Source of the DNA: Alteraurantiacibacter buctensis
Lineage (GTDB): Bacteria > Pseudomonadota > Alphaproteobacteria > Sphingomonadales > Sphingomonadaceae
Direction: 5' to 3'
Length of the DNA stretch: 64,000 nucleotides
Assembly: GCF_009827655.1 (NCBI RefSeq)
Contig: NZ_WTYV01000007.1
Location: 143,823-207,822 of the forward strand
Shown here: positions 25,106 to 50,090 of the stretch, piece by piece
Position numbering within the stretch: the stretch's first letter is position 1
Layout: each line of letters starts with the position of its first letter
Made by a program: the position numbers and the translations under genes
The notes under the pieces: model-generated
The model's input: the letters and a program-made list of their open reading frames with translations, nothing else
Database searches by the model: none
What the model was told of the DNA's origin: nothing

Positions 25106-27106
<2,001 letters not shown>

Positions 27107-27147
27107 TGGCTGGACAATAGGCGAGGCGGCCAGCACAGTCCAGCCGA

Positions 27148-39546: not shown

Positions 39547-39782
39547 ATCTCATTGAGAGATGTGCGAAAACCAACTGGTCCCGGTGTGCGGTTTACAGTT
39601 CGGCTAACACCGCATCCGACAGTGCGCTGGCCCATTGCCACGATTGCGCGTGACTGGTCAACACCGGTTCGGCGGATGCCCGACAGCTTTCCGACCGGAG
39701 GGGCCATCGGCTTGCGTGCCACGCTGCCCCACGCGGCCGGAAAGTTCCCGCCCTGGTCGCTCCCCGCTTGAGCAATCCATTG

Positions 39783-39792
39783 TGCAGTGCAA
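39783..39792 (+). promoter_or_regulatory. TGCAnTGCAA element before nasT
   Basis: TGCAGTGCAA ends 11 bp before the nasT ATG. The same ten-base pattern with another middle base occurs at 41609 (TGCACTGCAA) and 47404 (TGCAATGCAA) ahead of the two nitrate operons. Three hits at three transcription starts of one pathway suggest a common regulator site or core-promoter element. Which protein binds is unknown. Confidence 0.45.
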
Positions 39793-39803
39793 TACGAACG
39801 TAC

Positions 39804-40379
39804 ATGAAGATCGCCATCATCGATGAAAACCGCGCCCGCGCCTCGATCATCGAGGAAGGGCTGGCGGGCTTTGATGGCGAGATCCACGTGATTGCCGGGC
39901 GCGAAGGCCTGCTGGCCAGGATCGAGCAGATCGCGCCCGACATCGTGCTGATGGACCTGGGCAACCCCTCGCGTGACGTGCTGGAGGAATATTTCATGGT
40001 CAGCCGCGTGCTGGCCCGGCCCATCGCCATGTTCGTGGACGAGAGCGATGACGATGCCATCGCCGCGTCTATCGATGCGGGCGTATCGGCCTATGTGGTG
40101 GACGGGCTGGCTGCGGGCCGCATCCGCCCGCTGCTGGATCTTGCGGTCAAGCGGTTCAACGCCTTCGCCCGCCTGCAGGCCGACCTGGCCGAAGCCAAGG
40201 GCAAGCTGGCCGAGCGCGAGACGATCGACCGGGCCAAGCGCATCCTGATGGACAGCAAGCGCATTTCCGAGCCCGAAGCCTATGCCGAACTGCGCAAGAA
40301 GGCGATGAGCTCCAGCCGCCGGATCATCGACATCGCCGAAGCGGTCGTCACCGCGCACGACCTGATGGGAGGAAACTGA
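39804..40379 (+). CDS. nasT: ANTAR-domain antiterminator NasT
   Basis: 191 residues. An N-terminal receiver-like domain (MKIAIIDENRARASIIEEGLAGF, IVLMDLGNPSRDVLEEYF) precedes a C-terminal ANTAR domain (about 130-185): LAERETIDRAKRILMDSKRISEPEAYAELRKKAMSSSRRIIDIAEAVV. In Azotobacter and Paracoccus NasT binds hairpin pairs in leader RNAs and prevents early termination of nitrate genes; NasS holds it back when nitrate is absent. The pseudo-receiver keeps some acidic residues but phosphorylation is probably not used. The stop is 3 bp from the nasS GTG. Both predicted RNA targets are described at 41676 and 47472. Confidence 0.92.
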   Translation: MKIAIIDENRARASIIEEGLAGFDGEIHVIAGREGLLARIEQIAPDIVLMDLGNPSRDVLEEYFMVSRVLARPIAMFVDESDDDAIAASIDAGVSAYVVDGLAAGRIRPLLDLAVKRFNAFARLQADLAEAKGKLAERETIDRAKRILMDSKRISEPEAYAELRKKAMSSSRRIIDIAEAVVTAHDLMGGN

Positions 40380-40382
40380 ACC

Positions 40383-41594
40383 GTGGCCACGCGAGACCTC
40401 ACCATCGGCTTCCTGCCCCTGGTCGATGCCTGCCTGCCGATCCTGGCGCACGAGCATGGCTTTGCCGAGGAAGAAGGGCTGCACCTGTCGTTCCTGCGCG
40501 ATGTCAGCTGGGCGACCGTGCTGGACCGGCTGCTCTACGGCCATTCGGACGCGGCGCACATGCTGGCCCCGCTGGCCATTGCCACCACGCTGGGCGTGGG
40601 CCGACCGGCCCGGTCGCTGGTGGCGCCCTTCGTGCTGGGCCTGAACGGCAACGGCATCACCCTGCGCAAGGACCTTGCGGCGCGGGTCTGCCAGCCGGGC
40701 GCGTTTGGCGAACCGCAGGCTGTGGGCGCGGCCTTGCGGGTCGAGGTGGAGGCGGCGCTGGCGGCGGGCAAACGCCTGCGGCTGGGGGTGGTGCACCGCT
40801 ATTCCAGCCACAACTACAAACTGCGCTACTGGCTGGCAGCCTGCGGTATCCGGCCCGACGAGCAGGTGGAGATCGTGACCGTGGCCCCGCCGTTCGTGGC
40901 CGATGCCATGGCCGGTGGCGAGATCGATGGTGCCTGCGTGGGCGAGCCGTGGAACAGCCTGTGCGTGGAGCGGGACGTGGGCACCATCGTGATGGCCACG
41001 GCGCAGATCTGGCGGCGCGGGGTGGAGAAGGTGCTGGCCATGCGCGAGGACCGGCTCGACGAGCGGCGTGAGGACGTGGAGGCGCTGATCCGCGCCATGC
41101 GCCGTGCCGGGCGGCACTTCGTCGACCCCGCCAACTGGGAAGCCAATGCCGCGATTCTCGCGCGCCCCGAATATGTCGGCGGGCCGGAAAGCCTGATCCT
41201 GCGCGCCATTTCCGACCGGCCGGTGCTGGTGCATGGCGGCGAGCCGGTGCCATTCCCCGATTTCATGTTCCAGTACAGCGAGGCGGCGAACTTCCCGTGG
41301 AACAGCCAGGCGGCCTGGCTTTATTCGCAGATGGTGCGCTGGGACCAGCTCCCCTATTCGGACGAAGCGGCGCACCGGGCAGCAGCGGTGTTCCGGCCCG
41401 ATGTATACCGCAGTGCACTAAAATCGACCGGGGACGACCTTCCGGCAGCCAATTCAAAAGTTGAAGGCAGCGTTACCCAGCTTACCCAGGTAGGCGCGCA
41501 GCAGGGTTCTATCACACTGTCGGAAAACCGATTTTTTGACGGTCGCACGTTCGACCCCGACGATATCCGGGGCTATCTGGCCCAGCACGGCTGA
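40383..41594 (+). CDS. nasS: NasS nitrate-sensing, NrtA-like protein
   Basis: 403 residues of the CmpA/NrtA substrate-binding fold, without a signal peptide (starts [27 protein letters not shown]), so it is cytoplasmic. That fits NasS, which binds nitrate or nitrite and releases NasT. Blocks shared with Nrt[49 protein letters not shown]. The start is a GTG with GGAGG upstream. It is coupled to nasT. The TGCAnTGCAA element and leader of the transport operon follow after the stop. Confidence 0.9.
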
Positions 41595-41608
41595 CCAGCA
41601 ATTTACGC

Positions 41609-41618
41609 TGCACTGCAA
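41609..41618 (+). promoter_or_regulatory. TGCAnTGCAA element upstream of the nrt leader
   Basis: TGCACTGCAA. It ends 57 nt before the first leader hairpin; the counterpart at 47404-47413 ends 58 nt before its hairpin. The constant distance suggests that transcription starts shortly downstream of this element in both operons. Confidence 0.5.
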
Positions 41619-41675
41619 AAAGACCCTTGCGCTGCCGCCGCCGAATCGCTTATCCCATCGGTGAACGGAGCATGG

Positions 41676-41781
41676 CTGCCCAGGGTTGGTCAGACGCAGA
41701 AGGCTCCGATCATTCGAAACATTGCGTGGCAACGTCGCCGCCCGATCTGATCCTTCCGGGGTCAAGTCGTGGCGGCTTTTT
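41676..41781 (+). promoter_or_regulatory. ANTAR-type antitermination leader upstream of nrtA
   Basis: Hairpin P1 is at 41676-41693: CTGCCC / GGTCAG (one mismatch) with hexaloop AGGGTT. Hairpin P2 is at 41726-41741: GTGGC / GCCGC with hexaloop AACGTC. Both loops have A at position 1 and G at position 4, the known ANTAR recognition code. Exactly 32 nt separate them. A terminator uses GCCGCC (41737-41742) paired with GGCGGC (41771-41776) plus TTTTT. It shares its left arm with the right arm of P2, so P2 and the terminator exclude each other. NasT binding should favour read-through into nrtA. Confidence 0.85.
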
Positions 41782-41812: not shown

Positions 41813-43246
41813 ATGACGGACTTGTTCAAGGGGCAGCTCAACCGCCGCACGGCCATGGGCACGCTGGCCGGCTTTGCCGCCGCGATCATGTTGGCGGGGT
41901 GCAGCAGCGGCGATGACGGGGCTGCCGCCCCGGTCGCCGCCGCCAATGCCGATGGCCCGCCGGAAAAGCCCAACCTGAAGCTGGGCTTCATCAAGTTGAC
42001 CGACATGGCCCCGCTGGCCATCGCGCTGGAGAAGGGCTTCTTCGTGGAGGAAGGCCTGAATGTCACGCTGGAGCCGCAGGCCAACTGGAAGGTGCTGCTG
42101 GACGGGGTGATCGGCGGGCAGCTTGATGCCGCGCACATGCTGGCGGGCCAGCCGCTGGCGGCAACGCTTGGCTACGGCACGCAGGCCAACCTGATCGCGC
42201 CCATGAGCCTGGACCTGAACGGCAACGCCATCACCCTGTCCAATCGTGTTTGGGAGATGATCAAGCCCAACCTGCCGATGGAAGGTGGCAAGGTGCGCCA
42301 CCCCATCTCGGCCGAGGTGCTGAAGCCCGTGGTAGAACGCTTCAAGGCGCAAGGCCAGCCGTTCAACATGGGCATGGTCTTCCCCGTCTCCACCCACAAT
42401 TACGAACTGCGCTACTGGCTGGCGGCGGGCGGGCTGAACCCCGGATTCTATACGCCCGGTGACGTCGGCGGCACCGTGGCGGCGGACGTCAACCTGTCGG
42501 TCACCCCGCCGCCGCAGATGCCGGCCACGCTGGAGGCCGGTACGATCGACGGCTATTGCGTTGGCGAGCCGTGGAACCAGCAGGCCGTGGTGCGCGGGAT
42601 CGGCGTTCCCGTGATTACCGACGACCAGATCTGGCACAACAACCCGGAAAAGGTGCTGGGCCTGCGCGAGGACTTTGCCGCCAGCAACCCCGCCACCGTG
42701 GCCGCCATGGTGCGCGCGATCATCAAGGCGCAAGCCTGGCTGGATGCCGATAACGGCGGCAACCGGGCCGAGGCGGTGGAGATCCTCAGCCGCCCCAACT
42801 ATGTCGGGGCCGATGCCGCCGTGCTGGCCGCCAGCATGACCGGGCAGTTCACCTTCGAAGCCGGCGACACCCGCCCGGCGGAAGGGTTCAACGTGTTCTT
42901 CAACGACTTTGCCGGCTACCCCTATTACTCGGATGCCGTGTGGACCCTGACGCAGATGCGCCGCTGGGGGCAGATCGCCGAGGATCACCCGGACATCTGG
43001 TATGTCGATACGGCCAAGCGGGTCTATCGACCCGACCTCTACCTTGCAGCCGCTAACAAGCTGGTGGCAGCGCAGGTGATCCCCGCCGAGGCCGTGCCCG
43101 AGACGGACGGGTTCCGCGCGCCAACGGCCGAGTTCATCGACGGCATGAGCTATGACGGGCGCAAGCCGAACGCCTACATCGCCGGTTTCGCCATCGGCCT
43201 CAAGGAAGGCCAGCGGGTGACCGCATCGGGCGTCAGCGGGGCCTGA
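41813..43246 (+). CDS. nrtA: Nitrate ABC transporter substrate-binding protein
   Basis: 477 residues. Signal: [33 protein letters not shown]. It has a lipobox Cys and an RR-like RRTAM start that may use the Tat pathway, so the mature lipoprotein is periplasmic. The core [47 protein letters not shown] and [19 protein letters not shown] match Nrt[14 protein letters not shown] is shared with nasS. It delivers nitrate to NrtB. The ATG at 41813 has GGAG nine bases upstream and lies 32 nt past the leader terminator. Confidence 0.93.
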
Positions 43247-47373: not shown

Positions 47374-47403
47374 CGCGAATTCGCAGTGCCGGGCCAGCGA
47401 TGT

Positions 47404-47413
47404 TGCAATGCAA
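47404..47413 (+). promoter_or_regulatory. TGCAnTGCAA element upstream of the nirB leader
   Basis: TGCAATGCAA, third copy of the element seen at 39783 and 41609. It is 58 nt upstream of leader hairpin P1. AT-rich sequence (TATTTGC) follows it and may be part of the core promoter. Confidence 0.5.
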
Positions 47414-47471
47414 TATTTGCTTGCCCGGCCAGGGCAAATCGGGTTAGGTCAAAGGCAAGACGGGAGTCGCC

Positions 47472-47576
47472 CGGTCCACAGCCGGACCGCAACAGGGCAC
47501 CCCGCCGGTTTTTTCATCAGCGTGGCAACGAAGCCGCCGATTGTTCCCTTCACCGGGCACGATCAGGCGGCTTTTT
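47472..47576 (+). promoter_or_regulatory. ANTAR-type antitermination leader upstream of nirB
   Basis: P1 at 47472-47489 is a perfect 6-bp stem CGGTCC / GGACCG with hexaloop ACAGCC. After exactly 32 nt comes P2 at 47522-47537: GTGGC / GCCGC with hexaloop AACGAA. Both loops carry A1 and G4. The terminator is GCCGCC (47533-47538) pairing with GGCGGC (47566-47571), extended by GAT/ATC with a bulge, followed by TTTTT. Again P2 and terminator share an arm. A T6 run at 47511-47516 lies in the linker. Same architecture as the leader at 41676. Confidence 0.87.
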
Positions 47577-47639
47577 CGCGTGCGCGTTTTCGGAGTGAGC
47601 AGGGTGAATGCAGCAACAGGCTTCCACGGGGCGACCCAG

Positions 47640-50090
47640 ATGAAAGAGCGGCTGGTGGTAATCGGCAACGGCATGGCCGGATGCCGCGCGGTGGAGGAAG
47701 TGCTGGCCCGCGATCCGGACCGCTTTGCGGTGACGATCTTCGGCGCGGAGCCGCGGGTGAACTACAACCGCATCATGCTCAGCCCCGTGCTGGCGGGCGA
47801 GAAGACGTTCGACGAGATCGTGATCAACGGGCCCGACTGGTATGCAGGCAACGGCGTCACGCTGGTCAGCGGCGATCCGGTGGTCGCCATCGATACCCTC
47901 ACCCGCACGGTCACCGCGCGCAGCGGGCACGTGGAGCCGTACGACAAGCTGCTGATCGCCACCGGCAGCGATCCCTTCATCATCCCTGTTCCGGGCAACA
48001 GCCTGCCCGGCGTAGTCACCTTCCGCGACCTGGATGACGTGGACAAGATGTTAAGCGCTGCCGAACAGGGCGGGGATGCCGTGGTCATCGGCGGCGGGCT
48101 GCTGGGACTGGAGGCGGCGCACGGCCTGTCCCTGCGCGGCATGAAGGTCACCGTGGTCCACCTGATGCCCACGCTGATGGAGCGACAGCTTGACGAGGCC
48201 GCCGGCTGGCTGCTGCGGCAGGAACTGGAGCGGCGCGGGCAAACCATCCTGACCGGGGCGAATACGAAGGCGATCCTCGAAGCCGATGGCCGCGTGGCCG
48301 GGGTTGAACTGGAGGACGGCACCCGCTTGCACGCCGATATCGTGGTCATGGCCGTGGGCATTCGCCCCGCCACCGCGCTGGCCAAGGCGGCCGGGCTGGC
48401 CGTGGAGCGCGGCATCTTGGTGGACGATCACATGGTCACCAGCGATCCCAACGTGCTGGCCGTGGGCGAATGCGTGCAGCATCGCGGCGCCTGCTATGGC
48501 CTGGTCGCACCGTTGTGGGACATGTGCCGCTCGCTCGCCGGCTACCTCACCGATGCGCCGCAGGGCTACGAAGGATCGGCCACCAGCACCAAGCTGAAGG
48601 TTTCGGGCATCGACCTGTTCTCCGCCGGAGACTTCTCGGGCGGCGACGGGGCCCAGGACATCGTGATGCGCGATGCCGCGCGCGGCGTCTACAAGCGGGT
48701 GGTGCTGCGCGACAACAAGGTGGTGGGTGCGGTGCTTTACGGCGATACCGCCGATGGCAACTGGTACTTCGACCTCCTCAAGAAGGGCGAGGACGTCTCC
48801 CCCATCCGCGAGGCGCTTATCTTCGGCCAGGCCTTCGCCAGCGGGGGCGCCCTCTCGGACCCTAATGCCGCCGTTGCCGCCCTTCCGGACGACGCAGAGA
48901 TCTGCGGCTGCAACGGCGTATCCAAGGGCCAGGTCGTCGGCTGCATCAACGCGGGGGCGCACAGCCTGGATGCCGTGCGCTCGCAGTGCAAGGCCAGCGC
49001 CAGTTGCGGTTCCTGCACCGGCCTGGTCGAAAAGCTGCTGGCGATCACGCTGGGCGGTGAGGTGGAGAGCGGCCCCAAGCCGATGTGCAAGTGTACCAGC
49101 TTCACCCATGACGACGTGCGCCGCAACGTGGTGGACAAGGGCCTGAAGGCCATCCCGCAGGTGATGCAGGAACTGCACTGGACCACGCCCGATGGCTGTT
49201 CCAGCTGCCGCCCCGCGCTCAACTATTACCTGCTGTGCGCCTGGCCGGGCGAGTACGTGGACGACCAGCAGAGCCGTTTCGTCAACGAACGCCTGCACGC
49301 CAACATCCAGAAGGACGGCACCTATTCGGTGGTCCCGCGGATGTGGGGTGGCCTGACCAACCCGCGAGAGCTGCGCGCGATTGCCGACGTGGTCGAGAAG
49401 TACAACGCCCCGATGGTCAAGGTCACCGGCGGCCAGCGGCTGGATATTTTCGGCATCAGGAAGGAAGACCTGCCCGCCGTGTGGGCCGACCTCAACGCCG
49501 CCGGGATGGTTTCGGGCCATGCCTATGGCAAGAGCCTGCGCACGGTGAAGACCTGCGTGGGCAGCGAATGGTGCCGCTTCGGCACGCAGGATTCCACCGG
49601 CCTTGGCGTGAAGATCGAGCGTATGACCTGGGGCTCCTGGATGCCGCACAAGTTCAAGATCGCCGTCAGCGGCTGCCCCCGCAACTGCGCCGAGGCGACC
49701 ATAAAGGACTTTGGCGTGGTCTGCGTGGACTCGGGCTATGAACTGCACATCGGCGGCAACGGGGGCATCCATGTGCGCGCCACCGACCTGCTGACCAAGG
49801 TGGCCACCGAGGAAGAGGCGATGACCATGTGCGCCGCCTTCATCCAGCTTTACCGCGAGGATGCCCACTACCTGGAACGCACCGCCCCCTGGGTGGAACG
49901 CAAGGGCGTGGACTGGGTGCGCGCGCAACTGCTGGACGATCCGGATGCCGTCGGCCGGCTGGCCCGCCGCTTCCACTATTCGCAGCGCTTCTCGCAGGAC
50001 GATCCCTGGGCCGCGCGCGCGGCGGGAGAACGGCGCGACCTGCACGCCCACCTGGCCGAAGTGCGGCCCCTGCAACTGGAGAACGCATGA
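47640..50090 (+). CDS. nirB: Assimilatory nitrite reductase, large subunit
   Basis: 816 residues. Reduces nitrite to ammonium with NAD(P)H. FAD/NAD domain about 1-310 (VVIGNGMAGCRAV, then VVIGGGLLGLEAAHGL). A BFD-type [2Fe-2S] domain has CGCNGVSKGQVVGC and CKASASCGSC near 420-460. The nitrite/sulfite-reductase half domains follow, with siroheme/[4Fe-4S] cysteines in KTCVGSEWCRFG (about 637) and SGCPRNC (about 678). A GTG at 47604 would add 12 residues and has GGAG nine bases upstream; I keep the ATG that begins the canonical MKERLVVIGNGM. It overlaps nirD. Confidence 0.94.
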   Translation: MKERLVVIGNGMAGCRAVEEVLARDPDRFAVTIFGAEPRVNYNRIMLSPVLAGEKTFDEIVINGPDWYAGNGVTLVSGDPVVAIDTLTRTVTARSGHVEPYDKLLIATGSDPFIIPVPGNSLPGVVTFRDLDDVDKMLSAAEQGGDAVVIGGGLLGLEAAHGLSLRGMKVTVVHLMPTLMERQLDEAAGWLLRQELERRGQTILTGANTKAILEADGRVAGVELEDGTRLHADIVVMAVGIRPATALAKAAGLAVERGILVDDHMVTSDPNVLAVGECVQHRGACYGLVAPLWDMCRSLAGYLTDAPQGYEGSATSTKLKVSGIDLFSAGDFSGGDGAQDIVMRDAARGVYKRVVLRDNKVVGAVLYGDTADGNWYFDLLKKGEDVSPIREALIFGQAFASGGALSDPNAAVAALPDDAEICGCNGVSKGQVVGCINAGAHSLDAVRSQCKASASCGSCTGLVEKLLAITLGGEVESGPKPMCKCTSFTHDDVRRNVVDKGLKAIPQVMQELHWTTPDGCSSCRPALNYYLLCAWPGEYVDDQQSRFVNERLHANIQKDGTYSVVPRMWGGLTNPRELRAIADVVEKYNAPMVKVTGGQRLDIFGIRKEDLPAVWADLNAAGMVSGHAYGKSLRTVKTCVGSEWCRFGTQDSTGLGVKIERMTWGSWMPHKFKIAVSGCPRNCAEATIKDFGVVCVDSGYELHIGGNGGIHVRATDLLTKVATEEEAMTMCAAFIQLYREDAHYLERTAPWVERKGVDWVRAQLLDDPDAVGRLARRFHYSQRFSQDDPWAARAAGERRDLHAHLAEVRPLQLENA

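Follow-up and report, generated by a model that had tools for sequence, protein, structure and literature searches.

How might a single antiterminator protein act on two leader RNAs whose paired hairpins stand 32 nt apart? This question is raised by a 64,000-nt stretch of the Alteraurantiacibacter buctensis genome (henceforth the window), in which one nasT–nasS gene pair lies beside two operons, each preceded by such a leader. A gap of this size exceeds both the 5–12 nt of natural eut linkers, for which 3 or 14 nt drastically lowers induction by EutV, a protein described as needing both hairpins (PMC3369931), and the 2–25 nt range used as a check elsewhere (PMC8164766); part of it is paired in an outer helix, P0, taken up below. 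In the original definition of the ANTAR motif, as given in PMC3369931, the linker is called "variable", with no limit set. Work described in PMC8934654 reports that 20 added nucleotides abolish EutV antitermination, proposes loading on the first hairpin (P1) and hand-over to the second (P2), and argues from the EutV structure that a single dimer is unable to reach the two hexaloops of the same RNA simultaneously.

The gene order in the window is nasT, nasS, leader 1, nrtA, permease, fused ABC ATPase, porin, leader 2 and nirB, with the following genes framing the leaders:

39804..40379, + strand: nasT, with an ANTAR domain (PF03861, E 3.3e-16)
40383..41594, + strand: nasS, coding for an NMT1_2-family protein (PF13379, E 3.6e-61), the presumed nitrate sensor
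41813..43246, + strand: gene for an nrtA-like nitrate-binding protein, the first gene downstream of leader 1
47604..50090, + strand: nirB, assimilatory nitrite reductase large subunit, with a probable GTG start placed from relatives

An ANTAR response-regulator-like gene thus adjoins a gene for an NMT1-like nitrate-binding protein, and the NasT product was the sole ANTAR match in the genome in the domain search; its receiver-domain match (E 0.00047) falls below the Pfam cut-off. The genome is Erythrobacter-like. The window NasT shares 93% identity with the Aurantiacibacter suaedae protein and 96% with its counterpart in Erythrobacter UBA1916, and relatives in the NasT tree carry the label Erythrobacteraceae or Sphingomonadaceae; the family of the window we take to be Sphingomonadaceae in the broad GTDB sense. 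Elsewhere in the window, a TPP riboswitch was detected at 27004–27112 on the minus strand, its 56.3 bits barely exceeding the gathering score of 54.3.

The elements of the two leaders are laid out as follows:

41666..41708, + strand: leader 1 P0, CGGAGC (41666–41671) pairing with GCTCCG (41703–41708) and enclosing P1
41676..41693, + strand: leader 1 P1, CTGCCC (41676–41681), loop AGGGTT (41682–41687), GGTCAG (41688–41693)
41726..41741, + strand: leader 1 P2, GTGGC-AACGTC-GCCGC, from the sequence and the P2 pattern match
41736..41781, + strand: leader 1 terminator, T-run 41777–41781
47461..47472, + strand: leader 2 P0 5' strand, segments CGGG, GT and GCCC, from the minimum-energy fold and family-wide pairing tests
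47472..47489, + strand: leader 2 P1 hairpin, CGGTCC (47472–47477), loop ACAGCC (47478–47483; A1, G4), GGACCG (47484–47489)
47495..47504, + strand: leader 2 P0 3' strand, GGGC, AC and CCCG, lying within what had been annotated as the linker
47505..47521, + strand: leader 2 tail, U-rich CCGGTTTTTTCATCAGC, 17 nt from P0 to P2, from the sequence and the composition of 94 leaders
47522..47537, + strand: leader 2 P2 antiterminator hairpin, GTGGC (47522–47526), loop AACGAA (47527–47532), GCCGC (47533–47537)
47531..47576, + strand: leader 2 intrinsic terminator, having an arm in common with the 3' side of P2, T-run 47572–47576

Each leader carries two hairpins with stems of at least 3 bp and hexaloops with A at position 1 and G at position 4 (ACAGCC and AACGAA in leader 2, AGGGTT and AACGTC in leader 1). 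A closing C–G pair under each loop is known from NasR SELEX, as described in PMC7496416; the top pair of P1 is C–G in 91 of 92 alignment rows (leader 2 being present twice), and the top C–G pair of P2 is fixed by our search pattern. The terminator arms of leader 2 (GCCGCC, 47533–47538, and GGCGGC, 47566–47571) fold with an energy of −28.1 kcal/mol over 47530–47576. P2 and the terminator are mutually exclusive: in both leaders the full-length fold contains the terminator but no longer P2. Base 47472 could belong to either P1 or P0. The first-pass annotation had this anatomy right, to the base in leader 2 and with the same layout in leader 1, as it did the 32-nt gap, read directly from the sequence in both (41694–41725 and 47490–47521). 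The distance from loop A1 to loop A1 is likewise 49 nt and the tail 17 nt in both. A P1 nearer to P2, within the gap, was sought and rejected, the hairpin scan giving only the one at 49 nt in each window leader. P1 of leader 1 contains a C–U mismatch, and in folding its top three pairs have a mean probability of 0.46 versus 0.999 in leader 2; its relatives L010 and L012 show neither feature, and the hairpin is possibly decaying or tuned.

We searched for such leaders with a P2-plus-terminator pattern that makes no use of P1 or the gap and demands four T; weaker leaders, such as one at L033 9113, fall outside the set. The pattern had two matches in the 3.77-Mb genome and none in the control. 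An RNA model (R1), whose alignment included both window leaders, recovered the same two (E 2.3e-10 and 1.7e-9), with the next match at E 3.2 among the 150 of 2017 first-look candidates that were scored; further leaders of this type in the genome were rejected, as the remaining matches among those scored had E > 3. A loose P2 pattern with two mismatches was discarded as noise (204 matches versus 188 in a reversed control). Rfam 15 gave no match at either leader up to E 1. Across the family the pattern matched 35 of 298 genomes; it also matched 25 of 396 genomes of the order, all in the window's family, and none of the control.

Pattern matches together with NasT loci made up 95 distinct leaders. 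When searched for without restriction, the best upstream [AG]NNGNN hairpin lay 46–55 nt from the P2 loop in 91 of the 95, lay elsewhere in three and was absent from one; in a dinucleotide-shuffled control it fell at 46–51 nt in 3.5% of cases, and 62.5% had none. The tests below on 94 leaders omit L061, which has a 7-nt loop, and use a P1 chosen among candidates 44–56 nt upstream; the alignment A1 and the model R1 comprise 92 rows, 91 of them distinct, leader 2 being present twice. Position 1 of the first loop is A in 77 of 94 leaders and G in 17, the search having allowed A or G there and required G at position 4. P1 shows covariation, alignment pair 24–37 occurring as G–C, A–U, U–A, G–U, C–G and U–G.

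The leaders go together with one type of NasT. NasT was found in 95 of the 298 family genomes (E up to 1e-25), and by our hand tally the leader pattern occurs in 35 of the 40 genomes having a NasT of 69% or greater identity to the window's, and is absent from all 55 in which NasT is more distant and from all 203 that have no NasT. For four of the five genomes lacking the pattern the locus was retrieved, and each proved to have a leader with P2 loop AATGNN rather than AACGNN. In a NasT tree of 71 rows, whose bootstrap is not fully settled, 34 of the 35 rows of a supported clade (100/99) have a leader in the retrieved locus and none of the 36 others do. Separately, we observed a NasT frame with one internal TAG (G070:C19:21664-22182) in a genome that also has no leader pattern.

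The genes behind the 94 family leaders are nrtA in 43, nirB in 30, a porin in seven and others in 14. The earlier reading of two operons under separate control of ANTAR-type antiterminators, with NasTS beside them, is thus borne out by these counts, as by the A1/G4 hairpins and the adjacent nasT–nasS pair. Among the remaining genes, named by eye, L042 precedes a probable formate/nitrite-type transporter and L053 a probable NarK-type transporter; leaders in front of these and of the porin suggest a wider NasT regulon. Some genomes contain three such leaders (L042, L070 and L071 in one, L069, L084 and L085 in another).

Upstream, by eye, the leaders have in common a sequence block made of a dyad box (TGCTGCANTGCAAAA), then CTTTACG or CTTGCC, and often GAATCG(G/C)TTA. 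In the window this block yields the following candidate elements:

41606..41620, + strand: dyad box CGCTGCACTGCAAAA before leader 1, one mismatch to the pattern
41626..41655, + strand: probable leader 1 promoter, CTTGCG (41626–41631) and TTATCC (41650–41655)
47401..47415, + strand: dyad box TGTTGCAATGCAATA (family consensus TGCTGCANTGCAAAA), an exact pattern match and a probable DNA site of a regulator
47420..47449, + strand: probable leader 2 promoter, CTTGCC (47420–47425, −35-like) and TTAGGT (47444–47449, −10-like), spacer 18

With TTATCC and TTAGGT as −10 elements, transcription would start near 41661 in leader 1 and 47455 in leader 2, so that P0 would begin at the 5' end of the RNA or near it. 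The dyad box matches at least 10 of 15 bases in 92 of the 94 leaders (nine in the other two), 70–81 nt before loop 1, against a shuffled best of mostly 7–9 of 15, and the genome contains 50 matches with up to two mismatches versus 14 in the control, palindromic sites being counted per strand. Its positions 7 and 9 appear symmetric (A/G and T/C). The box presumably resembles the TGC-rich sites of PhaR-type regulators. One copy (39780–39794) lies close before nasT, and another precedes a gene (L238, among loci L227–L238) that was judged by eye to be phasin-like. A conserved box before nearly all leaders and also elsewhere in the genome could mean that the region is an ordinary attenuator or is regulated at the promoter, with NasT playing no part. 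This we regard as highly improbable, given the A1/G4 hexaloops, the closing C–G pairs, the P2 hairpin sharing an arm with the terminator and the co-occurrence of the leader with one NasT clade; the box indicates that another regulator probably acts as well.

We then considered the spacing between the two hairpins, which the first-pass annotation had called constant and had taken to suggest that the geometry of the ANTAR dimer is under selection. The spacing is tight, not constant: in 94 leaders it ranges over 46–55 nt (mean 49.28, sd 1.65), being exactly 49 in 40 and 48–50 in 74. Among ten loci, namely the window and the nine in which both leaders matched the pattern, only three (L029, L032 and the window) have equally spaced leaders; in each of the remaining seven the two distances are 1–3 nt apart. 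By the refuting condition proposed with that annotation, variable linker lengths in close relatives, strict constancy therefore fails, although the lengths keep within a narrow range. Nor does the spacing serve as a general measure of ANTAR-dimer geometry: among 14 leaders of other Alphaproteobacteria, ten have their nearest candidate P1 at 17–29 nt (the others at 33, 39, 41 and 81 nt), even though NasT itself has hardly any indels, 71 stretches of it aligning in 191 columns. By best-scoring candidate instead, P1 stands at 17–29 nt in seven of these 14; the two rules, which were applied after P1 had first been chosen by eye, disagree for L167 and both L161 leaders. This set is small, as the class-wide pattern matched only nine of 385 genomes; 20 candidate rows were also inspected, from which ten were picked by eye, five entering the set of 14, three being duplicate pattern matches and two (L149 and L163) being dropped. 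Several of the long-gap leaders in this set hold, by eye, an additional hairpin in the gap. The loops of the extra hairpins in L171, L173 and L161 fit [AG]NNGNN (GATGCA, GCTGGC and GACGCT), and these are perhaps triple arrays.

A different account of the gap emerges from the sequences on either side of P1. By eye, complementary blocks flank P1 in both window leaders: leader 1 has CGGAGC opposite GCTCCG, and in leader 2 CGGG...GCCC faces GGGC...CCCG. When the flanks were swapped among the 94 leaders, with direct continuation of P1 excluded, a leader's own flanks formed a duplex of −13.4 kcal/mol versus −8.8 for swapped ones (z −16.8, 0 of 10,000 permutations), and 91 of 94 leaders beat their row median. 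The same was seen with one representative per 50%-identity cluster (20 of 20 beating the row median, z −7.4, 0 of 10,000) and within the nrtA (43), nirB (30) and other (14) leaders taken separately (each 0 of 10,000); the seven porin leaders alone gave a weak signal (115 of 10,000). Two control pairings of the 5' flank gave no signal, one with the tail end (z −0.2, 4036 of 10,000) and one with the stretch that follows P2 (z +1.4, 9187 of 10,000).

A dot-plot of 91 leaders anchored on loop 1 alone placed nine of the ten strongest 5-bp diagonals on the line pairing i with 10−i, which begins at −7/+17 and runs outward (best combined z 7.5). This line is offset by 5 from the continuation of P1, which implies an asymmetric internal loop, of 1–2 nt versus 6–7 nt in the commonest register. 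In partition-function folding, 92 of 94 leaders reached at least four expected P0 pairs (the mean being 10.2), whereas swapped chimeras averaged 5.8 pairs and reached four in 64% of cases; the two weak leaders are L056 (2.5 expected pairs) and L069 (0.2). The register of P0 varies: 29 of 94 leaders form at least six of eight pairs at the main register, 17 do so at +1 and 13 at +2; within −4 to +4 this level is attained by 72 and by none of the other 22. RNAalifold on a MAFFT alignment recovered P1 and P2 and missed P0, which is why the tests used here are free of alignment. The strands of P0 are only 31–32% identical between leaders, against 66–67% for P1.

The gap is thus made up of a short bulge, the P0 3' strand and a tail. 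A model in which it is an unstructured 32-nt linker and the NasT dimer reads its length, as first proposed, draws on the length common to both window leaders and on the narrow range in the 94 relatives (sd 1.65 nt), and nevertheless appears improbable: a portion of the gap pairs with sequence 5' of P1, paired leaders differ in length at seven of the ten loci, and other Alphaproteobacteria space their hairpins at 17–29 nt (ten of 14 by the nearest candidate, seven of 14 by best score). A constant 32-nt free linker was rejected on the spacing variation and on the dot-plot and flank-swap pairing tests, which leaves the model in its first form largely refuted. The spacing might instead be merely inherited, since all 94 leaders belong to one family, with a common promoter block and P2, and other distances, such as from the box to loop 1 (70–81 nt) and from P2 to the T-run (42–58 nt, sd 2.62), are also fairly narrow. 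We judge inheritance without selection to be somewhat unlikely, as P0 and the bulge differ almost at random in sequence from leader to leader (28–32% identity) while the pairing persists, and as indels do occur (46–55 nt).

The arrangement extends in part beyond the family. In a related clade, whose P2 has the form CAGC-ARAGCC-GCTG, the pattern matched 26 of 55 genomes, and 15 of the 26 leaders have at least two further upstream [AG]NNGNN hairpins, against a null mean of 0.22 per leader. The nearer of these also has an outer helix, which still holds when the hairpin's own stem is excluded from the flanks (n = 25, z −5.6, 0 of 10,000), so that the enclosing helix may be older than the NasT clade of the window. 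At loci L194–L220 of this clade, leaders carry up to three ANTAR-type hexaloop hairpins at intervals of about 30 nt, and an outer helix encloses the middle one. The same test on ten short-gap leaders from other Alphaproteobacteria was null (z −0.1, 2202 of 5000).

What P0 does is a separate matter. It could mainly be a pause hairpin ahead of the U-rich tail, or protect the 5' end of the mRNA, with the presentation of P1 incidental. Such a role would suit the position of P0 at or beside the probable transcript start, the tail composition (47–53% T at −10 to −12 from P2 in the 94 leaders) and, in leader 2 of the window, the CCGG and six T that follow the arm. We nonetheless hold it to be unlikely, as P0 is positioned more precisely relative to P1 than to P2 (best z 7.5 versus 5.6), which fits presentation of P1.

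Put together, the sequences place P0, P1, P2 and the terminator in these leaders and tie them to one NasT clade, which makes it probable that the leaders are NasT-controlled antiterminators of the known ANTAR kind with a nested architecture in which P0 encloses P1. We infer NasT binding, the nitrate response, the transcription start and the role of P0 along the following lines. The 120-nt nirB leader and its nrtA twin would be transcription attenuators relieved by NasT. When nitrate is lacking, NasS would hold NasT and the terminator would form; when nitrate is present, freed NasT would stabilize P2, and since the 3' arm of P2 is the 5' arm of the terminator, RNA polymerase could read through into nirB. 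P0, beginning at about the probable transcript start, would carry P1 at its tip above the asymmetric internal loop and leave a single-stranded A/U-rich tail between itself and P2. As EutV works poorly with a 14-nt linker and is inactive with 20 nt added, a 32-nt gap calls for a reason, and we propose that P0 absorbs much of this otherwise too-long gap, thereby keeping NasT loaded on P1 near the emerging P2. It is conceivable, if short of probable, that what ANTAR proteins require is proximity of the two hairpins once folded, whatever the number of nucleotides between them, and that P0 is a required part of the switch. Equally tentatively, that closeness might be met in various ways: by a short linker, by an inserted hairpin or by a 5' outer helix enclosing the recruitment hairpin.

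These points bear on a dispute over how an ANTAR dimer uses two hairpins, in which the structure is set against the dependence on spacing. A natural family whose hairpins stand much farther apart, and which has an outer helix, allows a clean test of this use and, if P0 is required, a natural test of the proposed hand-over from P1 to P2. Searches limited to linkers of up to 25 nt would miss such leaders, and ANTAR regulons may therefore be undercounted. In literature searched by title and start of abstract, we found no account of sphingomonad NasT leaders or of an enclosed P1, and the main text of PMC3369931 makes no use of the words Erythrobacter, Novosphingobium, Sphingo or nested. The ANTAR kind of antiterminator is already known; the new part is the nested arrangement, with P1 enclosed by P0.

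Among the known systems, Enterococcus eut with EutV resembles the window in its two A1/G4 hexaloop hairpins, the second sharing an arm with the terminator, and in a nearby ANTAR gene; it differs in its linker of 5–12 nt, as described in PMC3369931, versus the 32-nt gap and enclosed P1 seen here. The family leaders also depart from eut in that loop 1 starts with G in 17 of 94, only A or G having been allowed in the search. Klebsiella NasR with nasF has a like two-hairpin motif with A1/G4 loops and closing C–G pairs and likewise concerns nitrate, but NasR carries its nitrate sensor within a single protein, whereas NasTS is two; the passages on the nasF leader in PMC7496416 and PMC3369936 mention no outer helix. 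In Bradyrhizobium diazoefficiens, as in the window, one NasT serves several genes, some of them with leader hairpins, whereas the conditions are those of denitrification and most NasT-dependent genes are without a clear NasT hairpin in the account of PMC6759348. Another related system is Paracoccus denitrificans nasA, which has NasT–NasS, nitrate assimilation genes and leader hairpins, the first of them needed for expression (PMC3795266, PMC5424462). There, NasT is described as binding the nasA leader RNA, with NasS–NasT dissociating on nitrate or nitrite (PMC3795266), and a leader hairpin as needed for growth on nitrate, mutation of the first hairpin severely lowering expression (PMC5424462). 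Compared by description alone, it differs in that two hairpins are described, the replaced hairpin I being 37 bp, and an outer helix is not named in those descriptions. Unlike Paracoccus nasA, the window has two leaders, for two operons.
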